Assembly: GCA_016937175.1 (NCBI GenBank)
Contig: JAFGWL010000005.1
Coordinates: 1 to 53,056, forward strand
Direction of reading: 5' to 3'
DNA length: 53,056 bases
From: Candidatus Mcinerneyibacteriota bacterium
GTDB taxonomy: Bacteria; Macinerneyibacteriota; Macinerneyibacteria; Macinerneyibacteriales; DSCS01
Shown here: piece by piece, positions 8,808-46,821 of the stretch
How positions within the stretch are numbered: position 1 is the stretch's first letter
How the letters are laid out: the number at the start of each line of letters is the position of its first letter
The notes under the pieces: generated by a model
Told to the model about the DNA's origin: nothing
Databases searched by the model: none
What the model saw: the letters and a program-made list of their open reading frames with translations, nothing else
Position numbers and translations under genes: made by a program

Positions 8808-10955
8808 TCAGATCAGATCGAGAGTGTAAGAGAGTTTCATAAACCATCCCTTCGACCGGCTGTCTTCAAGAGGGAGGAGGGGAAGAGATGTCTCCCCATG
8901 CCCGTATCTGTAGCCGGTTGAAAGAGAGATGAGAGAATTGGGCTGGTAGACAAAAAGCGGATAGAGATAATACTCCACCCGGTCAGGCATGGACGGGTCT
9001 TCCATATCCACCTGCATCTTCTGATACTCAAGACGGATCCAGAAGGTGCGGTTAAACTGGACCTTCATCCCTAAGCCGAAAATATCCGCCTTAAATTTTT
9101 CTTCCATGCGGCTGATGATAAAACGGCCGAAGGCCTGTAGCATCCGATTGGGCCGGAGGGAAAAATCCCCTTCCATATGGGTGAAGGGGCACACTTCGGG
9201 AGCAGCGGCATCGTACCAGAGCTGCTTCCCCCGCCCCCAGAAAAGGCTTCCGCCGATCCATCGGAATGTATTGGACTGAACCCAGAATCCGTTAAAGCGC
9301 TGCCGATAGAATGAACCGTTGAAAAACTCGTTTTTATATTCTCCGGTGATACGGGCTCTCAGGTTCTTATCAAAACAAAAGGTAATATAAGGCTCAAAGA
9401 CAGTTTCCAGGCGCCGACTGTGTCCCCAATCGGTTTTTATATACCCTGACATGGAAATATCAGCGAATTTGAAAAAGATATCATCCCGTCCGGGACGGGC
9501 CACCATCCTGTTTATACTGTAATAACGGCGAAATCCTGTTTCAGGGATGAACCCCATATCCGCCCTGAAATCAGGACCTACCCCGAGGGTGTTCAACTCA
9601 AAATGCCAGACATCATCGTCAAAGGTCATTTCCGAATAATAGGCGGGAGATGAGATATCTCCCTCTTCTGTCTCTGTCCGGGACCAAACGGCCTGGTGAT
9701 GAGTATGGAATCCGTTTTCGAAACGGTAATTGGCCTCCACGCTGGCGACTCCGTTGATCCGCCCGTCAAAGGAGCGCAGGCTCATGGAGCCCCTCACATC
9801 ACCGTCTGCGCCGAAATTATACTTGTAGGAAGTAAATCCCCATAGAGCGTCCTCTTCCCCGTCAGCACCGAACCGTTCCCCGGGGACATCCTCATCCAAA
9901 GCAGCCAGGGCAAAAAAGGCGTTTGCCCCCCGGTTGTAGGAAATTTTGGCCCCCCACAGGGGATTTACGATAGCCCGGGTATGGTAAATATTGATGGGCC
10001 CGTTGAAGGGATTCGTCTCTTCCAGAAAGAAGGGCCTTTTCTCTTCAAAAAAGAGCGGATACCTGTTATTGACATCCACCTGGAAAAGATCCGACTCCAC
10101 AGTACTGTAATCCGGGTTATAGGTAGCTTTCAATGTCATCTGCGAGGTGGGCTCATAGATGAGATTCACTTCACCGCTGAGGTCATCCTCCTTGTATACT
10201 CCCCCGTCCAGAAGGTCCTCAGTGCTGGATGTGACTCCTGTCACCCCCGGGATCAGGACAAGGTTTCCGCGGGACGGGACAGAAGACAAGAACGCTTTAT
10301 TGAAATTCTTGTAATAGTTGACTTCGCCCCGGTCAAAAACCATTGAACTGACTTCTTCGCTCTTTTCGGGGATATAGCGTCGTATCAGGACTCCCCAGGC
10401 GACTTCGTCGCCGCTTGCATATTTTATGCTGTTAAAGGGGATCGCCACTTCCACCGTATAACCCCATTCATAGGTCTTTCCCTTGGAATGGAAAAAGATA
10501 TCATTTGAGAAATCCATCTGGTGATATCCTGTAATGATCCCGTCCCCCTGCTCTCCGTAGGGGTTGACTATAAAAAAGTAGGCTTTATCACGGGTATGGA
10601 ACGAGTCCAGATAGATATGGATCCGGTCCACATCCTCCATCTCGTCCCGGCTGCAGTGATGCAGTCGCATGGATTCGATATTCTGATAGTAACACCGTGC
10701 CGCGATGTAGATATTATCCTGATCGCTGGCCATAAAGACCTCTGTCTTTTCCGTGGGCTCGGTATTGTTCCCCGGAGATGTCTGGAGCATCTCTTGTGTC
10801 TGAAAAGCTCCTGCCCACTCTTCATATTCGATGATCCCGTCGATCTCAGGGGCCGAAGTGATATGGGGAATCCTCCACTCCCGGACATAAGCACTCCATG
10901 CAACGCACACCGAAAAGATCAATATCAGAAAAAGAATTATCCCTTTTTTCATCAT
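8808..10955 (-). CDS. Secreted CBM9-like/DUF5916 protein with C-terminal outer-membrane beta-barrel
   Basis: 715 aa. A signal peptide covers about residues 1-22. Residues about 30-220 have the CBM9/DOMON-like pattern seen at the N-terminus of DUF5916 proteins (APEIDGIIEYEEWAGA, NIYIAARCYY, VEVAIPFNSIKY). The rest is alternating polar/aromatic beta-strands ending in Y-T-L-D-L-I, consistent with an outer membrane barrel. FFEEKRPFFLEETNPF is a characteristic DUF5916 segment. Two adjacent ATGs (10955, 10952) follow GGAGG; the second has better spacing. It is the last gene after SDR and PspC. Function is unknown; an envelope or glycan-related role is inference. Confidence 0.8.
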   Translation of the reverse strand: MMKKGIILFLILIFSVCVAWSAYVREWRIPHITSAPEIDGIIEYEEWAGAFQTQEMLQTSPGNNTEPTEKTEVFMASDQDNIYIAARCYYQNIESMRLHHCSRDEMEDVDRIHIYLDSFHTRDKAYFFIVNPYGEQGDGIITGYHQMDFSNDIFFHSKGKTYEWGYTVEVAIPFNSIKYASGDEVAWGVLIRRYIPEKSEEVSSMVFDRGEVNYYKNFNKAFLSSVPSRGNLVLIPGVTGVTSSTEDLLDGGVYKEDDLSGEVNLIYEPTSQMTLKATYNPDYSTVESDLFQVDVNNRYPLFFEEKRPFFLEETNPFNGPINIYHTRAIVNPLWGAKISYNRGANAFFALAALDEDVPGERFGADGEEDALWGFTSYKYNFGADGDVRGSMSLRSFDGRINGVASVEANYRFENGFHTHHQAVWSRTETEEGDISSPAYYSEMTFDDDVWHFELNTLGVGPDFRADMGFIPETGFRRYYSINRMVARPGRDDIFFKFADISMSGYIKTDWGHSRRLETVFEPYITFCFDKNLRARITGEYKNEFFNGSFYRQRFNGFWVQSNTFRWIGGSLFWGRGKQLWYDAAAPEVCPFTHMEGDFSLRPNRMLQAFGRFIISRMEEKFKADIFGLGMKVQFNRTFWIRLEYQKMQVDMEDPSMPDRVEYYLYPLFVYQPNSLISLSTGYRYGHGETSLPLLPLEDSRSKGWFMKLSYTLDLI

Positions 10956-12026: not shown

Positions 12027-13238
12027 ATGGAAAAGAAGCCTTTCCTCCGCTCTATTGATGGCCTAGAAGAGTTTCCCCTGGAAAGCTTGGCCGAATACTC
12101 TTCACATGGGATTCCTCTTGAATGCATCATCCCCGGTATCGACGGGAAAAAGATCCGTCCAGGCAGGACCATCTGGGAGCGTTTCGCCTCATTTTTCCCT
12201 CTGGATCCCCTGGACATGTCTCTCTCTCTGGGAGAGGGGGACACCCCCTACCTGAAAGCATCTCCATCCATGCAGAGATTTACCGGCCTTTCCAGGCTCT
12301 TTTTTAAAAATGAAGCGGTGAATCCCACCTGGAGTTTTAAAGACAGAGGCTCTTTCTTCTGTGTCCAGTTATCTCTCCGGTTGGGTGAAAAACGATGTGC
12401 GACTATATCAACCGGTAATATGGGTCATTCCATGGCCGCTTACGGAAAAAGAGCAGGCCTTGAGACACTGATTTTTATACCCCGCGGGACCCCTTCTCAA
12501 AAGATACTGCCCATGCTTCTCCATCAGGGACGGGTCATCACCCTTAAGGGAAAGAGCTTTTCCGAACTGAAAACGAAAGTCCTCACACTCTCACGGGACT
12601 GCGGACTCAGGACGGTCACAGGGAACGGTCCCCATCGCATCGAAGGATATAAGTCTCTCTCTTTCGAACTGGCCGAGCAATCCGGAGGAGACCTTCCCGA
12701 CTATATCGCTCTTCCTGTCTCGGCCACAGGACATGCACGGGGAGTGTACAAGGGTTTCATAGAGCTCTATCAATCGGGTATCATCAGCCGGATCCCCCGG
12801 CTGATCCTTGTCCAGGCAGCCAGGAATGCGCCTCTGGCGCTTCCCCTGAAGAGAGGAGAAGCCAGGGTGCTCCCCTTTTCGGATTTTACAACGGCTGCAT
12901 CAGCCCTCATCACAGGGGATCCCCCGGGAGGGGACGCCTTTCTCCGTTTGGCGCTGGACAACCGTTGGCTGGGAGAGACTGTCACAGAGGAAGAGATCTT
13001 CAGAGGAGTCTCTCTTCTGGCATCAGAAGGGATCTATGCAGAAGCTTCCTCTGCAACGGTAGTCTGCGCTCTTAAAAAACTTGTGAGGAAGGGAGCCCTG
13101 GATGCCTCTTCCACTGTAGCCGCCATTATCACAGGGAGCGGGCTCAAAAACGATCCCGGTATTTTTGGCGGACTCCCGCTTCCCCCTGAGATGGATCCCG
13201 TCGAGCTGGAACTCTTTCTCAGGGGAGCCTCCTCTTAA
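12027..13238 (+). CDS. thrC: Threonine synthase
   Basis: 403 aa, PLP-dependent fold type II. It converts O-phosphohomoserine to threonine. The PLP lysine is Lys105 in NPTWSFKDRG; STGNMGHSMAAYG is the phosphate-proximal loop and ITGSGLKND the C-terminal PLP-phosphate motif. An N-terminal swap region of about 75 residues without the Cys-x-x-Cys of some archaeal forms precedes it. The ATG lacks a Shine-Dalgarno and lies 6 nt after a TATAAT. The stop overlaps the convergent copZ stop by 4 nt. A cysteate synthase or other paralogue is possible, but thrC is the best call. Confidence 0.85.
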   Translation: MEKKPFLRSIDGLEEFPLESLAEYSSHGIPLECIIPGIDGKKIRPGRTIWERFASFFPLDPLDMSLSLGEGDTPYLKASPSMQRFTGLSRLFFKNEAVNPTWSFKDRGSFFCVQLSLRLGEKRCATISTGNMGHSMAAYGKRAGLETLIFIPRGTPSQKILPMLLHQGRVITLKGKSFSELKTKVLTLSRDCGLRTVTGNGPHRIEGYKSLSFELAEQSGGDLPDYIALPVSATGHARGVYKGFIELYQSGIISRIPRLILVQAARNAPLALPLKRGEARVLPFSDFTTAASALITGDPPGGDAFLRLALDNRWLGETVTEEEIFRGVSLLASEGIYAEASSATVVCALKKLVRKGALDASSTVAAIITGSGLKNDPGIFGGLPLPPEMDPVELELFLRGASS

Positions 13239-13438
13239 GAGACGACACGATACCCCTCATCCTCTACAGACCTTCGGATACTCTCCCTATCCAGGGCCTC
13301 TTCCCCTGTGACCTCGACCCGTCCCGTCGCCAAGTCCACAAAGACTTCTTTCACACCCGGCAGTTGTTCAATGGCTCTGCGCACAGCCATGACACAATGA
13401 TGGCATGTCATTCCTTCCACAATGATTATCTCTTTCAT
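13235..13438 (-). CDS. copZ: Copper chaperone, heavy-metal-associated domain
   Basis: 67 aa, a single HMA domain with the metal-binding GMTCHHC (Cys12, Cys15) in loop 1 and a typical ferredoxin-like beta-alpha-beta pattern. It carries Cu(I) in the cytoplasm and delivers it to CopA or CsoR. AAGGAGG precedes the ATG, which overlaps the copA stop as ATGA. The last gene of the csoR cassette. Confidence 0.93.
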
Positions 13439-15834
13439 ATACTTTCCTCCTTCGGCCGTCGGGCACGTTTCAGGCTCAGAGAGTTACTGACAACAGATAC
13501 AGAACTGAAGGCCATGGCACCTCCAGCGATAATGGGCTGCAATAAACCCAAAGCAGCCAGAGGGATTCCCAGGGTATTATAGACAAAGGCCCAGAAAAGG
13601 TTCTGTCTGATCTTTCGCATGGTGAGTCTCGAAAGGTCCAGCGCATGCAGAAGGGTCTCCAGGCGTCCGTTCATCAATACCACATCCCCTGTCTCCATGG
13701 CAACATCTGTCCCGCTCCCCATGGCCAACCCTACATGGGCTGTAGCAAGAGCCGGAGCATCGTTGATCCCGTCTCCCACCATGGCAACGACACGACCCTT
13801 TTGACGCAGTTCCTCGATTTTTTTTGCTTTTTCCCCCGGCATGACCCGTGAAAAGATCCGATCTGACGGGATTCCCAGCTTTTCTCCCACAGCCCGGGCT
13901 GTCTTTTCGTTGTCCCCAGTGATCATATAGCTTTCTATCCCTCGCTCTTTCAGCCTCTTCAGAACACGCCCGGCCTCTTTTTTCAGCTGGTCTGAAAAGG
14001 AGATCAGTCCGACCACATCTCCATCCACAGAAGTAAAGACGACAGAATCGCCCCGGGCTGCTGCCTCTTCCCTGGCTTTGTCGATCTCTTCAGCCAGATA
14101 TGCGACCGGGACATATCCGGCCCGGCCTACACGGACCTCCTTCCCCTGGATCATCACACACACTCCCTGGCCGGGCTCGGCGCTGAACTTTTCTGCCCGG
14201 GGAAGTTCCACTCCTTTTTCTGAAGCGAAATCTACTACGGCCCGGGCAAAGGGATGTTCTGAAAAGGCTTCTGCCGAAGCGCTGTAGGCCAAAAACTTTT
14301 CTTCAGGATAATCTTTAATGCTCACAGCAGATGAGACACGGATAGATCCCGTCGTCAGTGTCCCGGTCTTGTCAAAGACCATGGCATCGATATCTTTAAG
14401 CCGCTCCAGACTCTCCCCGTTTCTCACCAGGACACCCCATTCGGCCCCCTTGCCCATTCCCACCATCAAGGCTGTCGGGGTCGCCAACCCTAAAGCACAG
14501 GGACAGGCGATGACCAGCACAGAGACTGAGGCGATGAGCCCGTGAGAGGTATTCCCCTGAAAAAGGAGCCACCCCAGGAAAGTAAAGAGAGCAATTCCCA
14601 GCACCGCCGGGACAAAATGGGCAGCCACCCGGTCTGCCAGTTTCTGGACAGGGGCTTTCGTTCCCTGTGCTTCTTCGACGATCCGTATGATATGCGCCAG
14701 GACCGTGTCTTTCCCCACACGGTCAGCTTCTACTTTTAAAGACCCGGTCCCGTTTACGGTCCCTCCGGTGACTCTGTCTCCCTGTGCCTTTTCCACCGGG
14801 AGACTTTCCCCGGTCAGCATACTCTCATCCACAGTCGAAGCCCCTTCAAGAATATGGCCGTCGGCAGGAACCCTTTCGCCCGGCCGGACGATGAGATGGT
14901 CTCCGGGTACGATCTCCTCTATCCTTCTTGTCTCCAGGCGTCCGTCTTCTGTTTCCACAAGAGCTGTCTTAGGCGCCATTCCAATAAGCTTTCTGATAGC
15001 CTGAGTCGTTTTACCTTTGGCTCTGTTCTCAAGGTATTTACCCAGAAGAACAAGAGTAATGATCATGGCTGAAGTCTCAAAATAGAGTTCATGGCCATTT
15101 CCATCAACAGAACGGAAAAAACCGTTATATATACTGTACAGGAAAGCCGTTGTCGTCCCCATGGCTATGAGAAGGTCCATCCCCGGGCTCAGGCTTCTCA
15201 CGCTGTGCCAGGCCTTCCTGTAAAACGGAAGACCACCGATGAACTGGACAGGTGCGGCGAAAATCAGCTGGAACCAGGGTATATGGAAAAGCGGAGCGTT
15301 AATCCCCGCGACCATAAAGACCATACCCGCCAGCAAGGGGAGAGTAAGGACCGAAGCCAATATAAGCCTTCCCGCCCCTTCCCCCTTTTTTTGTTTCAAC
15401 TCCTGAACAGGGTTTGACCTGCGCGCCTTATATCCCAGAGATTCGATCTTTTCGATCAGAGAGTCCACATCTCCGTCCTCTGTCTCAACAAAACACTTTT
15501 CTGTTGCAAGATTGACATGGGCCCGTTTTACCCGGGGAAAAGAAGAGAGCCCTTTTTCAATCCTCGCTACACAGGAGGCACAGGTCATCCCCTCGATATC
15601 GATCTCAACTGCCTTATCCTCTTCTGGTTTTTCTGCTGGCTCATACCCCAGAAAACGGATCTTGTCATAGATCTTCTCTGTATCCACTATTTCCGGGTCG
15701 TAGTCTACTATAGCTTTTTCTGTGGCCAGATTCACTCTGACCTCCCTGACCCCCTCCTCTTTTCCCAATGCCCGTTCAATACGGGCAACACAGGAGGCAC
15801 AGGTCATCCCTTTTATCTTAATGTCCTGTTTCAT
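13435..15834 (-). CDS. copA: Copper-exporting P1B-type ATPase
   Basis: 799 aa from the ATG at 15834 (GGGAGA upstream; frames open to 15939 are extensions inside the preceding gene). Two N-terminal HMA domains each carry GMTCASC (first Cys12/Cys15). Eight membrane segments follow the P1B plan, with the membrane metal site CPC at 444-446, phosphorylation Asp488 in DKTGT, TGES in the actuator domain and [10 protein letters not shown] in the hinge. CPC plus two CxxC domains indicates Cu(I)/Ag(I) export. It overlaps the RseC-like gene by 17 nt and copZ by 4 nt. Confidence 0.96.
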
Positions 15835-16231
15835 GATGTCTCCCTTCATCAAGAATCTCCACTTTGATCTTCTTTCTGATCCCTTCATTGAGAAGATGCA
15901 GCGGGAAAAAGGAGCCTGTAAAGAAGACCAGGGCGCCAAGAACCGTCCATCCCTCCCCTGGGAGAAGGAGGCTTGCCAACAGTGCTCCGGCTATGGCTGA
16001 TGCCAGGGGAGCCAGGAGGGCCAGAAAAGAGAGAGCCGGAGTAACAGGAAGGGTCAGCTTGATCCTGTCTCCTGTCTTTATCCGGAAAGCATCAGGAAGC
16101 GTGATCCATTTTCCCCGGGGTTCTGATGGGCACAACCCGCACCCGGAACAGTTTTTACCGTGAGCTTCTCCCTCAGAGACAAGGAAGATCCGTCCCTTTT
16201 CCTTTTCTTTTACCCATCCTTCAAATATCAT
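15818..16231 (-). CDS. RseC/MucC-like (SoxR-reducing system) membrane protein
   Basis: 137 aa. The N-terminal soluble part has the cysteine cluster NCSGCGLC (C-x2-C-x2-C), followed by a small beta barrel-like segment ([18 protein letters not shown]) and two membrane helices (about residues 70-117), which is the RseC/MucC layout. E. coli RseC is linked to sigma-E and SoxR reduction; in many anaerobes it sits with Rnf. Here it lies between a SHOCT protein and copA and overlaps copA by 17 nt. Its cysteines could bind metal or a cluster. A copper-linked redox role is inference. Confidence 0.75.
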
Positions 16232-16241
16232 ACACCCCTCC

Positions 16242-16475
16242 TCACCGTCCGTGCTGCCTGGCCTCGATCATCTCTTTGATCCTCTTATAATCATTTTCTG
16301 TGACCTCTCCCCTGGCCAGCCTCTTTTCCAGTATCTCTGAAGAAGAGATCCTCATGTCGGATTCTTCTTTCCCATGGCTGTGATAAAATAAGAGAGCTCC
16401 GGCCACCAATAACAGAAATAGAAGCAAAAGACCCAGGGAAACATATCCGGTCAGGGGACATGATCCTATAAACAT
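16242..16475 (-). CDS. Small membrane protein with SHOCT domain
   Basis: 77 aa from the ATG at 16475 (AAGGAGG 7 nt upstream; two GTGs precede it). Residues about 10-33 form one hydrophobic helix, then FYHSHGKEE, then a C-terminal SHOCT motif (EILEKRLARGEVTENDYKRI). SHOCT domains are short C-terminal modules of unknown, possibly oligomerising, function. An N-terminal Cys and the two His after the helix could contact metal. It lies 12 nt after csoR and 10 nt before the RseC-like gene, so it belongs to the copper operon. Confidence 0.85.
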   Translation of the reverse strand: MFIGSCPLTGYVSLGLLLLFLLLVAGALLFYHSHGKEESDMRISSSEILEKRLARGEVTENDYKRIKEMIEARQHGR

Positions 16476-16487
16476 CACCACACCTCC

Positions 16488-16790
16488 TTATTTCAGCATT
16501 TTCTTTATGGTCGCCAGAACTTCATCGATCACTTCATCCCTGCCGGCTCTGATCTGTTCGACTACACAGCTCTTAAGATGCGCTTCCAGAAGGATCTTTT
16601 TGACTCCGTTGAGAGCAGCCTCGACAGATGAAAACTGGTTAAGTATCTCATCACAATAGACGTCTTTCTCGATCATCCCCCGTATTCCCCTCACCTGTCC
16701 CTCGATCTTATTGAGCCGGCTGATCATTTTGATTTTCAATTCATTGGAGTGGTAAGCTTTCACCGGCGTACAATAATTCTTATTTGCCAT
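16488..16790 (-). CDS. csoR: CsoR family copper-sensing transcriptional repressor
   Basis: 100 aa, the four-helix DUF156/CsoR fold. The Cu(I) ligands Cys46, His71 and Cys75 have the exact C...H-x-x-x-C layout of CsoR, separating it from FrmR and RcnR paralogues. RLNKIEGQVRGI is the basic DNA-contact helix. When copper binds, the repressor leaves DNA and the cassette is expressed. It is the first gene of its own operon, so autoregulation is expected. The ATG is preceded by GGGGGTAAGGG, which serves both as ribosome-binding region and possible operator. Confidence 0.93.
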   Translation of the reverse strand: MANKNYCTPVKAYHSNELKIKMISRLNKIEGQVRGIRGMIEKDVYCDEILNQFSSVEAALNGVKKILLEAHLKSCVVEQIRAGRDEVIDEVLATIKKMLK

Positions 16791-16806
16791 ACCCTTACCC
16801 CCTATA
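16791..16806 (-). promoter_or_regulatory. Possible CsoR operator (G-tract element) in the csoR leader
   Basis: The minus strand reads ATAGGGGGTAAGGGTAT immediately before and into the start codon of csoR, a G-tract flanked by ATA/TAT. CsoR operators are G/C-tract elements flanked by AT. It overlaps the ribosome-binding region, so the assignment is tentative. Confidence 0.35.
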
Positions 16807-16823
16807 TCTATCTATCTGTTAGT

Positions 16824-16852
16824 ATTTTACTTACATTATTGTGCCCTGTCAA
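16824..16852 (-). promoter_or_regulatory. Promoter of the csoR-copA cassette
   Basis: Minus-strand TTGACA (16847-16852), 17-nt spacer, TAAAAT (16824-16829). It is followed by ACTAACAGATAG, an element shared with the nifS promoter at identical spacing. Confidence 0.8.
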
Positions 16853-16864
16853 GGGGATAAAACA

Positions 16865-16891
16865 AAAAACCCCGCTCAAGGCGGGGTTTTT
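16865..16891 (-). terminator. Intrinsic terminator after nifU
   Basis: A perfect 11-bp stem (16865-16875 with 16881-16891, loop TCAAG) of AAAAACCCCGC/GCGGGGTTTTT. On the minus strand the stem ends in TTTTTTGTTTT. It lies 19 nt after the nifU stop and insulates the downstream csoR promoter; the flanking A/T tracts could make it bidirectional. Confidence 0.9.
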
Positions 16892-16909: not shown

Positions 16910-17875
16910 TCAGATCATCCGGGCTGTGACCCGAGGTCCTGCTGTTTCCTTGAGAACCTTGTCGATCATAGAGAGTGTCCCTGTCCCTGCAGCAGCACAG
17001 GTGGCACATCCTCCCAGATAACGGATGAAAATAATGGTCTCTTCTCCCTCTTTTTTGATATCCATGACCTCGACATCGCCCCCATCTCGGTGAAGAATAG
17101 GTTTGATCTTTTCAGCAAAGATCTCTTCAATGGCCTTATACTGGGCTATGGGGCTCATCTCTTCAAATGTCTCAAGGGATCCAATTGACTTGATCTTTTC
17201 ACGATCCATTTCAGCCCGTACTTCAGCCAAAATATCTTCAAGGTAATACTTTCTTTTTTCATGCCCCCCCGGGCGGATACAGGATCCGCAAAAGGCCCCG
17301 GCTTTTGTATAGCGTGTGATCTCTTCCACACTTTTCAAATCGTTGATTCGAATGACATCCTTGACCGTCTTCAGAGAGACACGGGCACACTCACATACGA
17401 TCTCTTCTTCTTCCGGATCTTCCATCTCCACCCCTTTATAGAGGGAAGCCGCTTTTTTGATGACATCATAGGCCATGACACTGCAGTGCATCTTCTGTGG
17501 GGGGATGGCCGCCTGGTCTTCCGTATCTCGCAGGGCTTTTTCCACGTCCAGATTGGTGATCTTCAAGGCTTCGTCGACGGTCTTTCCCATGCAGAGTTCC
17601 GCCATCACATCGCTTGATGCGATAGCAGTGCCACACCCGAAGGTCTTAAACCTTGCCTTCAGGATTGTATCACTTTTTGTATCCACAAGCCAAAAAAGGC
17701 GTACGGCATCTCCGCAGGATTCCGCTCCCCAGTCTGCAACAATAAGTCTTCTATTTTCTGCATCAGCTTCTTCGGGAGAGATCTCCCCGAAATAAGTGGG
17801 GTTATTCATCCTCTCGATGACATTATTTGAATAGGTCTCCCAAAGTTTACCGCCGATCAGGTCTTTCTTCGCCAT
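16910..17875 (-). CDS. nifU: NifU-type iron-sulfur cluster assembly scaffold, three-domain form
   Basis: 321 aa, the full NifU length. Domain 1 (about 1-130) is IscU-like with the three scaffold cysteines (AESCGDA, FGCGTA, KMHCSV). Domain 2 (about 155-215) is BFD/[2Fe-2S]-ferredoxin-like with VCECARV and FCGSCIRPGG. Domain 3 (about 240-321) is the NifU C-terminal scaffold with HRDGGDVEV and GGCATCAAA (CxxC). It assembles Fe-S clusters from sulfur delivered by NifS, encoded 11 nt upstream. No nitrogenase genes are in the window, so a general NIF-type assembly role is likely. Confidence 0.95.
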   Translation of the reverse strand: MAKKDLIGGKLWETYSNNVIERMNNPTYFGEISPEEADAENRRLIVADWGAESCGDAVRLFWLVDTKSDTILKARFKTFGCGTAIASSDVMAELCMGKTVDEALKITNLDVEKALRDTEDQAAIPPQKMHCSVMAYDVIKKAASLYKGVEMEDPEEEEIVCECARVSLKTVKDVIRINDLKSVEEITRYTKAGAFCGSCIRPGGHEKRKYYLEDILAEVRAEMDREKIKSIGSLETFEEMSPIAQYKAIEEIFAEKIKPILHRDGGDVEVMDIKKEGEETIIFIRYLGGCATCAAAGTGTLSMIDKVLKETAGPRVTARMI

Positions 17876-17886
17876 AAGGCCTCCTT

Positions 17887-19053
17887 TTAATAGTCTATGG
17901 ATATCTTCCTCAGCCTCTCAACGGCTTTTCCCAGGACTTCGATGACATAGCTGATCTCCTCGTCCCGCGTGAAGCGGGAAAGGCTAAAGCGCAGGGCCGT
18001 ATGAGAGAGAGAGGGGTCTATGTTCATGGCCACGAGAGTGTGGTCAGTCTCCAGGGATTCTGAAGCACATGCGCTCCCCGTTGATACGGCTACTCCGAAT
18101 TTATTCAGTTCCCATGCCAGAGCCTCCCCTTCCACCCCCTTGAAAGAAGCCAGTATCGTATTGGGTGTCCTTAATTCTCTTTTCCCCAGAATAGAGACAT
18201 CCGGCAGGCGTGCCATGGCATCTTCAAGCCGGTCTCTTAGAGCTCTGACCTGAGTCAGCTCCCTGTCCAGCTGTGAGACAGCAAGATCCATGGCCAGTCC
18301 CATTCCGATGAAACCGGGGACATTGACCGTCCCTGCCCGGAGATTTCCCATTTGCTCACCTCCATGCAGCAGCGGCCCGATGGGCATCCCCTTACGGACA
18401 TAAAGCCCCCCGATCCCTTTGGGACCATGAAATTTGTGAGCGCTGAAGGTCAGATAATCGACTGGCGATTCCTGAAGATCCACCGGGATCTTTCCGATAG
18501 CCTGGACAGCATCTGTATGAAAGGGGACACCGACACTCCGGCAATAACCAGCCATCTCTTTTACCGGGAAGATGAGCCCGGTCTCGTTATTAGCCCACAT
18601 CACAGAGACAAGAGCCGTCTCCTCCGGATTAAGATATTCTTTGAGGATATCCAGAGTCACGATCCCGTCGACATTTACAGGGAGAAAGATAACACGAGCT
18701 CCCATCTTTTCCAGGTATTTAGCTGTATTAAAGACACTGGGATGCTCGACAGACGACACGATGACGCTCTTCTTATCCCCCTTCTTCAGTATCTGGTCAA
18801 AGAGATAATATTTTAATACGGTGTTATTCCCTTCCGTCGCGCATCCGTTGATGATGATATTATCCTCATCGGAAGCCCCTAATCCCTTATAGAGCTGATC
18901 CAGGGCTTTTTCCATGGGCTGGCGCACCTCCATCCCGTAGGAGTGAAGGGAATTGGGGTTCCCGTACTTTTCTGTCTCATACTCCTTCATCAATGCTGAT
19001 ACCTGAGGGTCGACCATGGTGGTCGCATTGTTGTCAAGATAGACACGTTCCAT
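17887..19053 (-). CDS. nifS: NifS-type cysteine desulfurase
   Basis: 388 aa, PLP-dependent class V aminotransferase fold. It removes sulfur from cysteine and passes it to NifU. The N-terminus VYLDNNATTMVDP is typical. The PLP lysine is in SAHKFHGPKG, the catalytic cysteine in STGSACASE on a short loop, as in group I IscS/NifS enzymes. GAGGGAGG precedes the ATG. It is the first gene of nifS-nifU. Confidence 0.95.
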   Translation of the reverse strand: MERVYLDNNATTMVDPQVSALMKEYETEKYGNPNSLHSYGMEVRQPMEKALDQLYKGLGASDEDNIIINGCATEGNNTVLKYYLFDQILKKGDKKSVIVSSVEHPSVFNTAKYLEKMGARVIFLPVNVDGIVTLDILKEYLNPEETALVSVMWANNETGLIFPVKEMAGYCRSVGVPFHTDAVQAIGKIPVDLQESPVDYLTFSAHKFHGPKGIGGLYVRKGMPIGPLLHGGEQMGNLRAGTVNVPGFIGMGLAMDLAVSQLDRELTQVRALRDRLEDAMARLPDVSILGKRELRTPNTILASFKGVEGEALAWELNKFGVAVSTGSACASESLETDHTLVAMNIDPSLSHTALRFSLSRFTRDEEISYVIEVLGKAVERLRKISIDY

Positions 19054-32695: not shown

Positions 32696-34006
32696 CTAAA
32701 AGACTTTATAGACCAGTTGAAGGCTCATCCATGTTCCCACAGAAGAGACATCCTCGCCGGTCATCTCGTCATGGGTCTTGAGATTTCTCAGCGAGGCCCC
32801 TCCGGTCAAACCCAGGTGCGGGGAAAAATAATAGTCGATGTTACATCCGAGATTCAAGACAAAGAGATGCACATCCAAGATCCTTGTTCCGTTTATATTC
32901 TCTCTTTCGGCCTGATAAGCAGCTTCTCCGCTGAATCTCACCCGGGTCCGTGTATCGGGAAACCATTGTAGATCAGAAGCCACCATCACGTTGCTCATCT
33001 TACGCTCCCTGTCTGGGTCACCGGTCCGCATGCGCTCGCTCTTATAGCCCTGCCATCCTGCAAAGGCGCTCCATTGCCAATAGCGGCTGAGTATCTTCTC
33101 GACTTCGGTTTTGGCCATATAGATCATGCCCGACTCTTCCGTGTTGGTTACTCCACTCAGATAGAGCCCGTCAACACGGTCAAACGATTTTGTGTCAACG
33201 GATCTAACGAGGAAATGGACCTCTGCTCCGCTGGAACGTGACCCGATAGAGGCATAAGTAAGCATATCATTGAGAATGGTAAAATAGGCCATATTCTCTT
33301 CTTTCAACAGCCCCTTCCCGTTCAGAAAGGCGTCGATCCTGTTATAGTCTTCGATACGTTTCAATCTGGAATCCAGGACACGTCCCATCTGGAGTTCATA
33401 CAGCAGGTCCCCGAAAGCGGCCAGGTCGGCCTGGTTGGGATACCGTGTGAGGAGTCCCGCTGAGTAGAGCTCATCAATGACGGACTGGGCCCGGCGCATG
33501 GTCGTCAGGTTATAAATACGTCCGTATCCCGCTCCGGCGCCTGCGCTGTAAAGTGCCCGATGACTTTTACGGATGCTATCATCAATATTTTCTTTTGAGT
33601 CTTCATATCGGAAACTTCCGCTTCCGGAGGCAAAAAGTAATCCGGCGATATAATAACGCCCGTCACAATTCAGCCCCCCTCCATAATCCTTATAATGATA
33701 GGAACCGTCTTCGCTCTTAGCGTAATCATAACCAAACCCTCCCATGATTTCATAATCGAACTCCCATTTCTGGCGGTAAACTTCACTGAAATAGGATCCA
33801 TCCAGAGACAATTCAAGAGTGGTCTCATAATCCTGAACAGGATTCCCGTCATAACTGGCAGCGCTGAAACCAAACCCCGGAAGCTGGAACTCCAGCCCCT
33901 TGACGCTGTAATCTGGAAGCGTGTAGGATGAATAGTCGAATTCCGGCAAAGCGCAAAGGCCGGAGGCTAACAGTGTCAAAACAACCACAACCAAAGTCTT
34001 TCGCAT
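32696..34006 (-). CDS. Putative outer membrane beta-barrel protein
   Basis: 436 aa. A signal peptide (to about A19) is followed by alternating amphipathic strands rich in Tyr, Gly and Asp (YSEVYRQKWEFDYEIMGGFGYDY type), a helical middle (about 165-245), and more strands ending VGTWMSLQLVYKVF, with a terminal Phe as in barrel proteins. AAGGAGG precedes the ATG. It is first in a unit with the cyclase gene. I do not recognise a named family. Confidence 0.65.
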   Translation of the reverse strand: MRKTLVVVVLTLLASGLCALPEFDYSSYTLPDYSVKGLEFQLPGFGFSAASYDGNPVQDYETTLELSLDGSYFSEVYRQKWEFDYEIMGGFGYDYAKSEDGSYHYKDYGGGLNCDGRYYIAGLLFASGSGSFRYEDSKENIDDSIRKSHRALYSAGAGAGYGRIYNLTTMRRAQSVIDELYSAGLLTRYPNQADLAAFGDLLYELQMGRVLDSRLKRIEDYNRIDAFLNGKGLLKEENMAYFTILNDMLTYASIGSRSSGAEVHFLVRSVDTKSFDRVDGLYLSGVTNTEESGMIYMAKTEVEKILSRYWQWSAFAGWQGYKSERMRTGDPDRERKMSNVMVASDLQWFPDTRTRVRFSGEAAYQAERENINGTRILDVHLFVLNLGCNIDYYFSPHLGLTGGASLRNLKTHDEMTGEDVSSVGTWMSLQLVYKVF

Positions 34007-37992: not shown

Positions 37993-40900
37993 TTATAGTT
38001 TATGCTTTTCCAACCTTGTGACCATGGCTGTGTAGATCACTGGGATGATAATCAGTGTAAGTATGGTCGACGTGGTCAACCCGCCGATGATGGTCACAGC
38101 CAGGGGTCGGGTCAGTTCACTTCCTTCTCCGATCCCTATGGCCAAAGGAATCAGTCCCAGGATAGTCGTCATGGAAGTCATAAGGATAGGGCGAAAACGG
38201 AGTTTCCCCCCTGTCTTAACGGCATTCAGAAGGTCATACCCCTCCTCTTTCCTGAGACGGTTGATGATATCGATCTTGACAATACTGTCATTGACAACGA
38301 TACCTACAAGGACCACCATCCCCATAAGGCTCATGATGTTCAGCGAGGTATTTGTGATGAGCATGAGGACAAAGACACCGATGAAGGCCAGGGGAACAGC
38401 CAGGATGATGACAAAGGGTTGGAAGAAAGATTCAAACTGAACACCCAGGATCATGTAGACAAGGATCAGGGATAAGATAAAGGCGAACCCGAGTCCGGAA
38501 AAAGAATCCCTCATATTTTCGATTTTCCCGGCGAACTTGACCTTGACTTTTCCGGTATCCGGGAGCCCATCGAAAGCCAGTCGGACCTTGTCGATGGCCT
38601 TCTCCAGGGAGAGTCCTTTAATATTGCACATGAGAGAGAGTTTACGCCGCTGGTCCTCACGTTTCAGCTCATTGGGGACTTTTACGATCTGCATATCCAC
38701 AATATCACGGATCTTGTAATCGAATCCGTCGACATTGATGATCTTTTCCATAAACTCATCATAATTCGGGGGACGCTCTTCATTTTTGACCCATATATCG
38801 ATTTCCTTGTCTTGGTCATAGATGGTTGTGGCCAGGTCGCCTACCGTGTACTTTTTCAGCTGTTCGATCACGGTGTAGAGAGGGGTATCGATGGTATCGA
38901 TGAAGTAGTCTTTAAAACGCATCTCGATGATCTCCCGCTCAAGCTCCATATCCTTGACGACAAGGCGGAACCCGTCGATTTTTTCTATCTCTGGTTTCAG
39001 CCGATCAGCCACAGCGTTCAGCTCTTCGATCTCCTCCCCTTCCAGGATGACTTCGATATCATATTCTCCGAAGTCAAAGAATTGATTATAGATGCTCCCT
39101 GCCGAGTAAAAGGTGATATTGCCTTCGAGAGCACCTAGTTTGCTCATAAGATACTGTTTGAACGGTTCTACAAGCTTTTTACTCTTCATGGCAAACATAA
39201 AGTATCCCGTATTCAATCCTGAAATACTGTTGCCATAGGTCTTTCCCAGGTTGACGACAAAGTAGTCGATCTTTGACTCCTGATCTCTGATCGCAGATTC
39301 CACAAATTTCACATATTTTTCATTGGCACTCATGGTGGCTCCTGTGGAGAGCTTGTATTCCATGAAGAACTTATTCTCCTTGACATCGGGGACAAACTCC
39401 CGCCTTAAGAAAAGAGAGAGTCCCGCTGTCAGGAGTAGAACCGCCAGCGTAAGCAGGAGCGCCTTTTTCTTATTGGCCAGGGCCTTGTCCAGAATAGATT
39501 CATAGATCCCCATCCCCTTCTCCAGGATCTCGTCAAACCAGTCGAAGAGAGCTTTTCCCCTCCGGACCACAAATCGGTTCATCCGTTCAATAAACCTCGA
39601 ATCTCTGGAAAAGACCATTGGGACCAGGGTAAGAGCGACGATAAGAGAGGCCAGAAGAGAGACTGAAATGACAAAAGCCTGCTGTTTGAAGAGAACGGCG
39701 ATGACCCCTTTCAGATATAGGACAGGGAGAAAGACAGCTATGGTCGTCAGAGTCCCTGCCATGATGGCCATGGCCACTTCTGAAGCCCCTTTAACCGAAG
39801 CTTCGCGGGGATCCCGTCCGTAACCCAGATAACGGTCCATATTTTCCAGAACGACAATGGAGTTATCCACAAGCAGCCCGATCCCGATAGCCAGGCCTCC
39901 CAGAGAGAGGATATTGATACTGATCTTGGCCAGATAGAGCGTGATGAAAGTGGCGATGATGGAAAGGGGCATAGAGAGGCCTATGATAAAGGGTGATTTA
40001 AAGTCATGTAAAAAGACGAAGAGGACAAAAAAGGCCAGGACTCCTCCGATGAGGATAGAGAGGATGACATTGTTAATCGCATTTTTAATCGTCTCGGAGT
40101 CATCATAGAGGACCTGGAGATTCAGTTTCGGGTCTTCCTGTTCCAGGGAAGCGATGAGCTCCCTGATATCCGAAGCTACTTTGACGGTATTTGCAGATGA
40201 GGATTTTACAATCAGGAGGCCGATCCCGCGTTTACCGTTGAACCGTGAATACTCATCGAGCTCTGCAGCCCGGCGCCTGATATCCGCCAGGTCCTTCAGA
40301 CGGATATCCCCCCTGACTTTCATATTCCCGATCTCTTCTACTGTATAGCGGTTCTTTTCCAAAGAAAGCGAATAGGAGAAGTTTTCATCACCGATCTCTC
40401 CGGCAGCACTCACAAAATTATTACGGCTGAGGACCGTCTGGATCTCGTTGAAAGTGATTCCGTAGGAGACCATGTTCCTGTTGGAGACGATGACCTGGAT
40501 CTCCTCCTCGTCTGCTCCCACGACGTCACATAGGGCGACCCCCTCCAACCGCTCAAAGCGTCGTTTCAGGCTGTCGGAAGCATAATTGCTCAGGGTCATA
40601 AAGTCGTAATCACCATCCACCATGATCTGCATGATGGGAGCCTGGGCAGGATCGAAGTAGAGGATGTTGGGTTTTTCAGCATCCCCCAGGTCGTCGGAGA
40701 TATTATCCAGTTTTTCGCGGGCTTTGAGCATGGTATATTCCATATCCACGCCCCAGTAAAACTCAACGGTGATGAGCGATTTTGATTCCGTCGATATCGA
40801 GGTAATCTTTTTTACGTTGGGAAGAGTCCCCAGCTGCCGCTCTATCTTCTGAGTCACATTGGTATCCACCTCTTCAGGAGGCATATTGGGGGCTTTTGTC

Positions 40901-41043
40901 TCCACGGTGATCTTGGGAATATCAATGGACGGAAGAAGCTCGATATTCAGCATCTTAAAAGAGATAAATCCCAACAGCAACACGGCCATGAAGATCATGG
41001 TCGTCGTTACGGGACGGCGGACAGAAAAATTCGGAAGGCTCAT
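37993..41043 (-). CDS. RND efflux pump inner membrane subunit 1 (AcrB/HAE1 family)
   Basis: 1016 aa, the full RND length with 12 membrane helices and two large periplasmic loops. N-terminus SLPNFSVRRPVTTTMIFMAVLL is typical. In helix 4 the AcrB Asp-Asp pair is Asp393-Asn394 (LLVDNSIVVLEN), and in helix 10 the AcrB Lys940 position is Asn918 (GIVVNDSIV); RFRPILMTS keeps the helix 11 Arg. Exports drugs, lipids or signals using the proton gradient. It is the last gene of the operon and overlaps the adaptor gene by 4 nt. Confidence 0.95.
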   Translation of the reverse strand: MSLPNFSVRRPVTTTMIFMAVLLLGFISFKMLNIELLPSIDIPKITVETKAPNMPPEEVDTNVTQKIERQLGTLPNVKKITSISTESKSLITVEFYWGVDMEYTMLKAREKLDNISDDLGDAEKPNILYFDPAQAPIMQIMVDGDYDFMTLSNYASDSLKRRFERLEGVALCDVVGADEEEIQVIVSNRNMVSYGITFNEIQTVLSRNNFVSAAGEIGDENFSYSLSLEKNRYTVEEIGNMKVRGDIRLKDLADIRRRAAELDEYSRFNGKRGIGLLIVKSSSANTVKVASDIRELIASLEQEDPKLNLQVLYDDSETIKNAINNVILSILIGGVLAFFVLFVFLHDFKSPFIIGLSMPLSIIATFITLYLAKISINILSLGGLAIGIGLLVDNSIVVLENMDRYLGYGRDPREASVKGASEVAMAIMAGTLTTIAVFLPVLYLKGVIAVLFKQQAFVISVSLLASLIVALTLVPMVFSRDSRFIERMNRFVVRRGKALFDWFDEILEKGMGIYESILDKALANKKKALLLTLAVLLLTAGLSLFLRREFVPDVKENKFFMEYKLSTGATMSANEKYVKFVESAIRDQESKIDYFVVNLGKTYGNSISGLNTGYFMFAMKSKKLVEPFKQYLMSKLGALEGNITFYSAGSIYNQFFDFGEYDIEVILEGEEIEELNAVADRLKPEIEKIDGFRLVVKDMELEREIIEMRFKDYFIDTIDTPLYTVIEQLKKYTVGDLATTIYDQDKEIDIWVKNEERPPNYDEFMEKIINVDGFDYKIRDIVDMQIVKVPNELKREDQRRKLSLMCNIKGLSLEKAIDKVRLAFDGLPDTGKVKVKFAGKIENMRDSFSGLGFAFILSLILVYMILGVQFESFFQPFVIILAVPLAFIGVFVLMLITNTSLNIMSLMGMVVLVGIVVNDSIVKIDIINRLRKEEGYDLLNAVKTGGKLRFRPILMTSMTTILGLIPLAIGIGEGSELTRPLAVTIIGGLTTSTILTLIIIPVIYTAMVTRLEKHKL

Positions 41044-42203
41044 TCTTCCTCCACAGCAGCATCCTCATTATTGACCACAGTGACCGCTGCCTTATGGTTC
41101 AGGACATAATGTCCCTCGACGATGATCTCTTCACCGGCATCAAGTTTATCTTCGATGACGATATACTGGTAATTCTCCGGGCCCACATCCACATAGGTCC
41201 AGTAGCCCAGGCCGTTCTTAACGACGAAGACAAGCTTTTTCCCGTCTCTTTCCAGGACTGCTTCTTTAGGGACAAGGACCTTGTCTTTGATAAGATCCAC
41301 CTGCAGAAGGACGTCGCAGAAGACCCCCGGATAGAGATCGCCTTTTCTGTTGTCCAGCTCCACTACAGCATAGGTGGAGTTGTCATCATAGATAAGGGGA
41401 TTAACGGAGTAGACCCTTCCGGAATACTTTTCTTCGGAAACCACAGGGAATATCACAGCTGTGGCCCCTTCTTTGATCTGGTTGATATCTTTGACCAGGA
41501 TTTTTGCTTTGATGCGGAGACGTGTGATATCAGCGATACTGAGAACCGCACTGCCCGCCTGGAGATACTCCCCCTGTTTGGCTGCGATCTTCCCGACGAC
41601 TCCTGAAAAGGGAGCACGTATGGAACACTTTTTGTAATTTTCAAGAGCCTGTTTCAAGGCAAGTTCCTGTTCTCCCAGGCGGTATTTTATCCGTTCCCGG
41701 GTGATGGTCCCCTTTTGGAGCCCCTCCACTACATCCTGCTGGATTTTGGCGACCTCGCTGTCGTCTGAATAGAGGTCTTTCTGCTCCACAGCAAACCCTT
41801 CGACGCTTCCCACATCTTCAGAGATAGCCAGATACTGGATATAGGCTTTTTTATATTCCAGAAGGGCCTTTTCATAATTGATCTGGTAGGTGGGATTATC
41901 GATGGTAAAGAGCAGGGTTCCTTTCTGAACGAACTGACCCTCTTTTACTTTGATATTGACGTTTCCTGTGACTTCAGCGATATAGTCGTTCACACGTATG
42001 GCTTCCAGTTTCCCTGACGAGGAGATATAAAGCGGGAGGTCGCCCTTCCACGACCGGACAGTCTTCACCGGAACGGGAGCGGCCAGAGGTTTACTCTTAT
42101 CCTCCGCTTCTTTACTCTTTTTATTAAAGAAAAGGAACCAGGCTCCTGCTGCAAGGGCAGCGATAATAATCACGAGAACAATAACAAGGATCTTCTTTTT
42201 CAT
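41040..42203 (-). CDS. RND membrane fusion protein (HlyD/AcrA type adaptor)
   Basis: 387 aa. An N-terminal anchor helix (VLVIIIAALAAGAWFLFF) is followed by a split lipoyl domain (YIAEVTGNVNIKVKEGQFV and CSIRAPFSGVVGKIAAKQGEYL), a helical hairpin between them, a beta-barrel domain, and a membrane-proximal domain. It joins the pumps to the TolC-like channel. The tail is acidic (NNEDAAVEEE). ATGA overlaps on both sides show coupled translation. Confidence 0.95.
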   Translation of the reverse strand: MKKKILVIVLVIIIAALAAGAWFLFFNKKSKEAEDKSKPLAAPVPVKTVRSWKGDLPLYISSSGKLEAIRVNDYIAEVTGNVNIKVKEGQFVQKGTLLFTIDNPTYQINYEKALLEYKKAYIQYLAISEDVGSVEGFAVEQKDLYSDDSEVAKIQQDVVEGLQKGTITRERIKYRLGEQELALKQALENYKKCSIRAPFSGVVGKIAAKQGEYLQAGSAVLSIADITRLRIKAKILVKDINQIKEGATAVIFPVVSEEKYSGRVYSVNPLIYDDNSTYAVVELDNRKGDLYPGVFCDVLLQVDLIKDKVLVPKEAVLERDGKKLVFVVKNGLGYWTYVDVGPENYQYIVIEDKLDAGEEIIVEGHYVLNHKAAVTVVNNEDAAVEEE

Positions 42204-43597
42204 AGTAACTCCTCCACTATCGCTTGGGCATTCCCGACATATGAGCTGATCTCGAGAGCCGTCAGATTGTAATTTTTCAGCAAAGCGAGATATTCAAGCT
42301 CGGCGCTGATATATTCATCCTCAATATCCATGAGTTCCTGCAGAGTAATCGCCCCGATGTTGAACCGGGAGAGGCTGGAACGGTAATTCTCTTTCAGCGT
42401 GGGCAGAATATTCTTGAAAAGACCGATCTTTTCCCGGGTGATCTCCAGCTCTGTCATGAGCTTTTCAAAGGAGATCTGAATGGTCTCCATCTCATCCTGA
42501 AACCTGTTTTTTTCCATGAGATAGTCGATCTTAGTCATTTTCAGCCCGGACACCTTGGACAGATTGGCAAAAGGGATCGAAAGGACAAGAGACAGAGAAT
42601 AGTTGTCCCGTTCCAGGTTTCCCATAGATGAAACCCCTCCTCCGGTATAGGTGGCTTCCAGCTCTCCGAAGAGGGCCGGTTCATACTGCTTTTTATTCAT
42701 TTTGTATATACGGTAGGCATTATCCATCCTGATCTTCTGAAGAACCTGGCGCGTGTCGGGGCGAGTATCCTGAAAAAGAGAAAAATCGATATTGAGGATA
42801 TTTTTCTCAGGATCTTCAAAGGGGCCGTTCAGGTATAGCCTCATCTTTTTATCTGCCTCTTTGAGCTGCATCTCCGACTCCTTCAGGGCCATCTCCAGAA
42901 ATACATAACGTTTTTTTATCCTGTTATAGGTGATAAGGTCTGTGAGCCCCATCTTATAACTGTTCTCGGTAGCCCTGAAGATATCCCTGTAGCGCTCTGT
43001 CTGCCCTTTGTTCAATTCATAGCCCCTGAGGATAGTAAGATAGTCAATATAATGACTGTAGGCTGTTTTGAAAAAATCGAGGATATTCTGATCACAGTTG
43101 ATCTGCTTCTCTTTCCGGCTGTTCAGCCATAGCTTCATCCTGTGATACCCTGTATTGCTCCCCCAGAAATACTGACGGGCCGAGAAGAGAAGCTGGCCGG
43201 TTTTATACCCCCCCTCCACCTCCTCGCCGTAATACTTATAGGTCTGATAATCCACATAGGAAAAAGTAGCTTGGAGTTCTGTATTTGTGGGAAGAAGCTG
43301 ATTCACCACAGCTGCCCCCCCGTAGGAGAGGTACTCGTTTTCAAATACCTCACCCAACCCCTCATACTCGTCTGTGCTGCTCCGGTAAGTAGGAAGATAA
43401 AATTCAAAATCTATACGGGGCAGCAGCAAAGCGAGGTCCGACCGGGATGACCAGGCCTCATAGCTGTTTTTAAGTTCAAGGTCGCGGCGCCCGTCTCCTT
43501 TTTCCCAGGCTCTTTCCAGATACTCACTGAACGACATAGCCGAAAGAGCGAGAGAAAGCAGAAGAGTGAATAGAATCAAAGTTACTGATCGCTTCAT
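42200..43597 (-). CDS. TolC-family outer membrane efflux protein
   Basis: 465 aa. A signal peptide (to about A19) is followed by the two OEP repeats, each with long coiled-coil helices: first half about 30-240 (with YSHYIDYLTILRGYELNKGQ), second half 280-465 (IGAITLQELMDIEDEYISAELEYLALLKNYN, the conserved last helix). The protein forms the outer channel of the RND system. It overlaps both neighbours by 4 nt. Confidence 0.9.
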   Translation of the reverse strand: MKRSVTLILFTLLLSLALSAMSFSEYLERAWEKGDGRRDLELKNSYEAWSSRSDLALLLPRIDFEFYLPTYRSSTDEYEGLGEVFENEYLSYGGAAVVNQLLPTNTELQATFSYVDYQTYKYYGEEVEGGYKTGQLLFSARQYFWGSNTGYHRMKLWLNSRKEKQINCDQNILDFFKTAYSHYIDYLTILRGYELNKGQTERYRDIFRATENSYKMGLTDLITYNRIKKRYVFLEMALKESEMQLKEADKKMRLYLNGPFEDPEKNILNIDFSLFQDTRPDTRQVLQKIRMDNAYRIYKMNKKQYEPALFGELEATYTGGGVSSMGNLERDNYSLSLVLSIPFANLSKVSGLKMTKIDYLMEKNRFQDEMETIQISFEKLMTELEITREKIGLFKNILPTLKENYRSSLSRFNIGAITLQELMDIEDEYISAELEYLALLKNYNLTALEISSYVGNAQAIVEELL

Positions 43598-46500: not shown

Positions 46501-46821
46501 AAGGAACATGACAAAGTCCGGATCAGCGTCCCTCTCCAGTTCCACGGTGATATAACAGCGCCCCTCCATGGTAGTGGAAGAAACATCCTGCACTCCCCTG
46601 ATGGTATAGATCTCCTCTTCAATGACCGAGGTGACATATTTGATGACATTCTCCGGAGACTGGTTGGGAAGCCCGGCATAGATGGTGAGTCTGGGGTATT
46701 CCACCTCAGGCAGGTCTTCTTTAGGGATCTGGTAGAAAGCGTATAACCCTGTGATCAGGATCACAATGAAAACGAGAATAAAACCTTTTGGTCTTTTGGT
46801 GACAAGGTCTGAATAAGCCAT
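43594..46821 (-). CDS. RND efflux pump inner membrane subunit 2 (AcrB/HAE1 family)
   Basis: 1075 aa, 12 membrane helices and two periplasmic loops. N-terminus SDLVTKRPKGFILVFIVIL and the PN1 segment Y-P-R-L-T-I-Y-A-G-L-P-N-Q-S-P match the family. Helix 4 reads LLVDNAVVVYEN and helix 10 AGIVVNNTIIM, again with single Asp and Asn for Lys. A basic C-terminal tail of about 70 residues (ending KKIKPKKKSRRSS) extends past the last helix. It is the first gene of the operon, with an ATG lacking a Shine-Dalgarno 6 nt after the -10 box. Confidence 0.95.
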   Translation of the reverse strand: MAYSDLVTKRPKGFILVFIVILITGLYAFYQIPKEDLPEVEYPRLTIYAGLPNQSPENVIKYVTSVIEEEIYTIRGVQDVSSTTMEGRCYITVELERDADPDFVMFLVNEKISSLKEKLPNDINGPTVEQYIPREIGEDTFFSLYLSSDILDGYSLTKFAEDELQRELAEIPGVSGIDIQGGVERELSIEYDQPAIEQYNISFYSIVDKVMSMNKKISIGNIRMQDKRIYVTFRNDMDIENIENWDVENGIKLSQVAKVTFKDEDPQTIHKMNGKPAVYVQLTKASDANAILVSQAVIKKLKAVEKEYPNIFYKVADNEGKKVLEGYSSILLKIIVSVIAIFLVLFSFMRHVKPSLITMSSIFLSVSFAINYLFFSGESLNKFTLSGIALAFGLLVDNAVVVYENIHKHYYTGKKIKEAILLSFKEMFIPIIASTTTTVCVLLPFVFLQEELKIYYIPFAKTIVVALIASIFISFSLIPIAFSYFHIESKVRHAKSKGISFYQKYVGFLLRIRWIALAAMLFIIGYSLYVFVEDVDKSSFSWGGFDYPPELNCIFYPETNVPDFRLKDAVNQFEGLIAGNEIVDYYRTSISETRGYIIIYFKEEFEGSAEAYALREKLKVYGNRMSQVNVRIWGIGPDFGGGGYMGGTRYQSTVWLQGYNYTKLKEEAKKFRDVLLSFREVSEVKLGEETTSSVKKAVVDIDSDKLDIYGLSLNDVTSKVRSLVSEFTMRNTVKLGNDYINFTFSPKDKIGLYELKNLYLAHGVKLSDVAAIELEGSTRRIEREDQTYSYPISYDFSSSTQTDEEFKEGLRDHILYPPGFSLKIEDDNQRWWDDETDYNKILILLGFAILLIYMIIAALYESYTEPFIILLTLPLAFVGVIWLYKIFKLNFGIHAIMGSMLLAGIVVNNTIIMVNHINYLRREKKVKRVFGIILGASDRVRPILITSLTTIMGLLPIILLKDKTDDSSTADIWKHLSYATVGGLTTSTFFTLTFMPILYFFFSKKGEKEVSYPGTGFLTWARRVSWSSLPGLGWREIKRTPLHIRRLPLYGKMLFSAAGNLLKKIKPKKKSRRSS

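Follow-up and report, generated by a model that had tools for sequence, protein, structure and literature searches.

We found a gene for an RseC/MucC-family membrane protein inside a putative copper export operon on a 53,056-nucleotide (nt) contig of a Candidatus Mcinerneyibacteriota bacterium (GCA_016937175.1, JAFGWL010000005.1; this whole stretch is hereafter the window), and found that the link between RseC and copper export recurs across phyla far above chance. In the window, genes for a CsoR-type repressor, a one-helix SHOCT-like protein, the RseC-family protein, the P1B-type ATPase CopA and the chaperone CopZ follow one another on the minus strand (Table 1), apparently behind a shared promoter and operator-like site, and in other genomes RseC genes stand beside pumps of Cu(I)/Ag(I) and As(III) types. 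We tentatively favor a role for this RseC as a membrane-anchored thiol or iron-sulfur (Fe-S) accessory that keeps the export of thiophilic ions reduced.

An earlier note on this DNA had described a standard csoR, copA and copZ set with two small membrane proteins between csoR and copA, and this arrangement held: csoR and the ATG of the SHOCT-like gene are separated by 12 nt (the start moves to 16481 if GTG is used instead), that gene and rseC by 10 nt, and the reading frames of rseC and copA overlap by 17 nt and those of copA and copZ by 4 nt, with a purine-rich ribosome site at each junction and one for every gene. CsoR, CopA and CopZ all score above Pfam cut-offs. CsoR combines PF02583 with C46, H71 and C75 in its translation, within what we take to be the ligand motif (Cys, HLKxC) of a predicted copper-binding protein. 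CopA scores 601.6 bits against the copper ATPase model TIGR01511 (cut-off 397), has two HMA, one E1-E2 ATPase and one hydrolase domain in Pfam, and carries CPC, YN..P and M..SS, presumably the P1B-1 signatures; together these features identify it as a predicted Cu(I) P1B-1 ATPase. CopZ is a single HMA domain with MxCxxC and scores below the NCBIfam CopZ cut-offs. Judged from its genes, the operon is a variant of csoR-copZA: like such operons it has a CsoR-operator-like site and joins the genes of a CsoR-type repressor, CopZ and a Cu(I) P1B ATPase into a single unit, and it differs from them by the SHOCT-like and RseC proteins between regulator and pump.

The RseC protein belongs to PF04246 (RseC_MucC; 45.5 bits against a curated cut-off of 24.4) and falls below the NCBI equivalog for SoxR-reducing RseC, NF008115 (10.9 bits against 184). 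Its cluster C28-x2-C31-x2-C34, which the earlier note had singled out, is real, and all three cysteines are invariant in 13 aligned RseC, but it is not special to this operon: among 145 RseC sequences, a count that includes redundant loci, CxxC-x2-C occurs in 47 and CxxC-x5-C in 73. We rejected the cluster as a copper-specific trait, since it is family-wide and equally kept far from metal genes. A single-sequence AlphaFold2 model (predicted local distance difference test score 69) places an N-terminal strand domain before helices 65-89 and 95-118 and a C-terminal strand, a predicted layout that agrees with the E. coli RseC topology in the available sections of PMC11729352. The window protein shares PF04246, three N-terminal cysteines and two predicted membrane helices with E. 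coli RseC, Pseudomonas aeruginosa MucC and Rhodobacter capsulatus RseC, and unlike them it lies outside a sigma-E, Rsx/Rnf or ApbE setting. A PDB sequence search returned no relative (best E 0.074, a receptor, taken as chance), Foldseek with the model gave nothing at E <= 0.001 (the top rows being OB-fold-like ribosomal and nucleic-acid proteins), and the best VIA-align Z of 6.2 was within noise; the fold is possibly, at most, a small beta-barrel.

A survey of RseC genes near copA, set beforehand by the earlier note as the test of its idea, did find recurrence. PF04246 matches (140 rows) came from 131 of the 386 genomes, and we read 135 of the rows in context, leaving aside the weak or partial rows G128, G378, G061, G340 C22 and G083 C26; 30 of the 135 loci were first read over +/-1.5 kb and then widened. 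Neighbors were labeled by phmmer with sequences from this analysis, a procedure that may miss distant families, and a YHS pattern with 0 matches was left out. With metal-linked defined as a CsoR, P1B ATPase, ArsP, ACR3 or RND gene within 2.5 kb on the same strand, 13 loci from 11 family codes were metal-linked, 15 were Rnf, 11 ApbE/RnfB and the rest other. Seven of the 135 loci (the window genome G000, G026, G311, G200, G003, G258 and G217) have a same-strand P1B ATPase no more than 1 kb away, whereas 0.23 such loci would be expected for 2.9-Mb genomes with 5 copies each, an expectation that is a density estimate rather than a matched control; P1B ATPases are present in 293 of the 386 genomes. 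After removing the window and merging G026 with G311, five families were left, with P about 5e-6. Locus L206 (G037), with a P1B ATPase 3.4 kb from RseC, fell outside this count. Because the window, G026, G200, G003 and G217 represent separate phyla, and G052 (Marinitoga) belongs to none of these, the recurrence covers at least six phyla.

The individual loci vary in content. Behind csoR in G026, RseC follows 19 nt on and then a three-HMA CopA, and the RseC-CopA pair is kept in G311, of the same family but another genus, with RseC 52% identical. The order is RseC, YHS, CopA in G217, whose phylum contributes 40 genomes to the sample, 9 of them with a match to the G217 RseC; in that phylum an RND pump gene, which we take by recognition rather than by a model to be of CusA type, stands just before RseC in G516, G519 and G525, and YHS and DUF302 follow RseC in G519. 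G003 has a YHS-HMA P1B ATPase, a cupredoxin, RseC and DsbD, all part of a larger metal cluster that also includes SHOCT and DUF302-like genes, and G258 has a YHS-disulfide-reductase protein, RseC and a YHS-P1B ATPase, in that order. RseC adjoins an ArsP-type permease in families f96 and f186 and in G069. In six of seven species of Marinitoga (named through L222), a second RseC or its pieces, flanked by SHOCT genes, follow csoR/copA at a distance of about 1.3-1.6 kb. As side observations, a YHS domain fused to a pyridine-nucleotide disulfide reductase adjoins RseC at L075 (5049-6116, minus strand), and a P-II gene immediately precedes RseC in G516 (PF00543) and, judged by eye, also in G217 and G076; P-II-like genes in this position, all in one phylum, are at L229 (944-1312), L100 and L105, the L229 copy next to RND pump genes.

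In G200, RseC and the P1B ATPase are certainly adjacent and possibly fused, as one 1031-aa frame holds RseC (8-138), YHS (150-194), two HMA domains and the P1B ATPase. RseC there occupies the position of a metal-binding domain, ahead of YHS and two HMA domains, as might suit a docking module that serves as an additional metal-binding domain at the membrane, its three cytosolic cysteines binding Cu(I) for delivery to the HMA domains or the membrane entry site of CopA. The same idea draws on YHS, cupredoxin or Met-rich proteins next to RseC in G003, G217, G519 and G516, and on the three cysteines being intact in 18 of 19 metal-linked RseC with an intact N-terminus. We nevertheless consider hand-over of this kind unlikely, as the cysteines are kept equally in RseC distant from metal genes, the operon is already provided with two HMA domains as well as CopZ, the G200 join is a run of eight A at which a shift of one base in either direction gives two overlapping genes, and the E. 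coli RseC cysteines bind Fe-S in the portion of PMC11729352 available.

Within the phylum, the sample comprised three genomes: that of the window, G001 of the same genus and G002 of the same order. G001 has nifS-nifU-copA in the same setting (copA 62% and nifU 84% identical to the window), with no csoR, SHOCT, RseC or copZ at that locus. In G002 the order is csoR-SHOCT-copA-copZ-nifU-nifS, with CsoR 58% identical and a SHOCT-like homologue that looks alike in the same position (30% over 67 aa); RseC is absent from this locus, and a further RseC lies beside ACR3-ArsC-thioredoxin-ArsR genes. Because SHOCT stands in the G002 operon without RseC, the SHOCT-like gene appears to be an old part of the operon, and RseC was probably inserted in the window lineage or else lost twice. 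For the same reason we rejected an obligate SHOCT-RseC pair; the earlier note had proposed that the two act in one step, and of this their renewed proximity beside csoR/copA in Marinitoga is what stands. The SHOCT label of the earlier note falls short of the Pfam threshold, PF09851 scoring 16.7 bits where the cut-off is 27, although the homologue in G002 looks alike; the Cys and two His that it noted are present at opposite ends of the helix, so that they offer no single joint site in a monomer. Two further settings were seen in these genomes. RseC lies directly before topA in all three (L012 7687-8100, L013 7856-8281, L014 5199-5681), and this position is conserved and housekeeping-like, the stretch showing no labeled Rnf gene. 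In addition, rnfG- and rnfD-type genes (L220 278-1817, minus strand) lie beside and divergent to the G002 csoR operon.

That a common small gene simply landed beside copA, with no copper role, would fit the RseC-free copper loci of G001 and G002 and the many other neighbors that rseC has. We regard such hitchhiking as improbable, given that the adjacency is repeated far above expectation in separate families and that RseC is kept beside copA in the different genera of G026 and G311. On a tree of 145 RseC rows, built without duplicate short loci and without L183 and L184, the split copies of Marinitoga, the 19 metal rows required 13 changes, against a shuffled mean of 18.1 and none of 500 shuffles as low, and at least 5 of these changes are forced by starred branches. 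The window RseC is a long branch whose nearest five rows (G522, G516, G217, G003 and G076) are all near metal genes, two of them labeled other as their locus is short or cut; no starred set on the tree includes the window RseC, and we claim no kinship with these rows. A plasmid or phage origin was rejected: tblastn of the window RseC against plasmids found nothing, two other metal-linked RseC matched only 7 plasmid records, each at least 0.5 Mb long and classed as non-mobilizable, and two viral-contig scans gave no relative, so these searches give no sign of a mobile resistance cassette.

The pumps beside RseC carry reduced, thiol-loving ions, namely Cu(I), Ag(I) and As(III), and thiol-redox neighbors recur there, including DsbD in G003, the YHS-reductase in G258 and the thioredoxin of the G002 ars operon. 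According to the available text of PMC11729352, changing two of the three cysteines of E. coli RseC leads to loss of function, and the cytosolic N-domain of the protein can carry an Fe-S cluster, sensitive to O2, at the equivalent cysteines. These three lines together lead us to favor a redox accessory, and the E. coli cluster, by analogy, favors redox over simple copper binding for the window protein. The recurrence beside metal genes and the retention of all three cysteines in 18 of the 19 metal-linked sequences with a complete N-terminus also count in favor of this role. We suggest that rseC would have been inserted into a CsoR-controlled export operon between the older SHOCT-like gene and copA, and that RseC would be an inner-membrane protein whose cysteine cluster, as in E. 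coli, would face the cytosol, next to the CopA HMA domains. There, perhaps through an Fe-S or dithiol cofactor and contact with CopA, it could pass electrons to, or keep reduced, the CxxC thiols of CopA and CopZ or Cu(I) itself, since P1B-1 pumps move only Cu(I).

Several observations weigh against this proposal. By fixed labels, 96 of the 135 RseC loci have no metal or Rnf/ApbE neighbors; both nearest relatives, G001 and G002, lack RseC at the copper locus; the metal-linked RseC of G519 is without one of the cysteines; and the copper operon does not encode an electron donor. A single origin of the metal-linked copies was rejected, as these copies form no single clade on the tree, where they need 13 changes. 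In Marinitoga the gene is intact in four of seven species, split in two (one split copy comes from the M. lauensis long-read assembly, where a sequencing error is possible) and not found in one, which together with the RseC-free loci of G001 and G002 argues that it is dispensable. A wider version of the proposal, in which RseC is a general partner of soft-ion pumps (Cu(I)/Ag(I) via CopA or RND, arsenicals via ArsP or ACR3), its Fe-S or dithiol site reducing or loading the ion or the pump thiols, and the Rsx/Rnf/SoxR role is one special use, seems to us somewhat unlikely.

RseC could also have no direct part in export and be under CsoR control since copper wrecks Fe-S, maintaining membrane redox or Fe-S systems of the Rnf type. 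The nifS-nifU genes that adjoin the copper genes in all three phylum genomes, rnfD and rnfG beside csoR in G002, and the 26 of 135 RseC loci linked to Rnf, ApbE or RnfB all speak for it, as do the action of E. coli RseC with Rsx and, in the sections of PMC9124969 at hand, the need of Clostridium ljungdahlii autotrophy for rseC. Yet it fails to account for the G200 frame, for the close packing of RseC between the repressor and pump genes of several phyla, and for its company with ArsP, ACR3 and RND pumps, and we judge it rather unlikely. The idea that RseC is a membrane sensor, signaling copper damage through CsoR or the pump by means of an Fe-S cluster labile to copper or oxygen, is very improbable: CsoR itself senses copper directly, and in the stretch read no CsoR or ArsR is labeled beside several of the metal-linked RseC genes. 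The presence of csoR in the same operon is in its favor, as are the O2-sensitive E. coli cluster and the location of RseC/MucC in sigma-E regulatory operons in the available part of PMC11729352.

Regulation of the operon is suggested by the region upstream of csoR (Table 1). The promoter there was the best of three in the scan, in which sigma-70-like sites were no more numerous than in shuffled sequence. Within the operator-like site, GATATAGGGGGTA occurs exactly at 16796-16808 and again before the G002 csoR (L220 2520-2532), with 0.07 occurrences expected in the window, and in G002 it is half of a palindrome. Since it is common to both csoR upstream regions and half of a palindrome in G002, it likely marks a CsoR operator before the window csoR. 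A terminator between nifU and csoR argues that the Fe-S genes are a unit separate from the copper operon. These nifU-like and nifS-like assembly genes occupy 16910-19053 (minus strand), immediately upstream of csoR. The same pair is next to copA in G001 and comes after copZ in G002, making the Fe-S/copper neighborhood a stable one in the phylum. Elsewhere in the window, also on the minus strand, are two AcrB-type RND transporters (1016 and 1075 aa) close together at 37993-46821, and long open reading frames of 715 aa (8808-10955) and 436 aa (32696-34006) with no Pfam match at E 1e-5.

Table 1. Predicted features of the copper operon and its upstream region in the window.
Feature	Position	Strand	Basis
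copZ, copper chaperone	13235..13438	-	PF00403, 64.8 bits
copA, Cu(I) P1B-type ATPase, two HMA domains	13435..15834 (ATG start)	-	TIGR01511 and Pfam
RseC/MucC-family membrane protein, Cys28/31/34, two membrane helices	15818..16231	-	PF04246, 45.5 bits
One-helix membrane protein, weak SHOCT-like C-terminus, 77 aa	16242..16475 (ATG start)	-	PF09851 below cut-off
csoR, copper-type CsoR/RcnR repressor	16488..16790	-	PF02583, 97 bits
CsoR-operator-like site GATATAGGGGGTAAGGGTATG, overlaps csoR start	16788..16808	-	exact GATATAGGGGGTA shared with G002
Sigma-70-like promoter TTGACA-17-TAAAAT, before csoR	16824..16852	-	11/12 matches
Intrinsic terminator between nifU and csoR	16865..16891	-	11-pair stem and T-run

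Parts of this arrangement have precedents. Archaeal SHOCT and DUF302 genes lie by copper islands (PMC5498576), similar in placing SHOCT beside copper-transport genes and different in being archaeal and in a copper-island passage that does not mention RseC, and a SHOCT gene is up under silver in Haloferax, according to the available part of PMC10694973. The Rnf-linked rseC of acetogens belongs to the same family, with no copper link in the available sections of that study, which does not contain the word copper, notes second rseC copies away from Rnf and leaves their role unexplained and, in the section concerned, their neighbors unnamed (PMC9124969). Our literature search, with subscription papers and preprints outside its scope, found no paper that, judged by titles, abstract openings and selected passages, links RseC to copper or arsenic efflux; most matches were to unrelated words or to lists of E. 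coli genes. SHOCT beside copper genes is thus already in print for archaea, and the recurring link of RseC to efflux is the part of interest.

RseC/MucC proteins are widespread, and although they have been studied in E. coli and acetogens, their job is still unclear. We suggest that the association with the efflux of copper, silver and arsenic, repeated in six phyla, hints at an unrecognized job and gives a testable handle on it. If the proposed role is true, a redox component would be added to soft-metal efflux, and the known effects of RseC on SoxR and Rnf could be recast.

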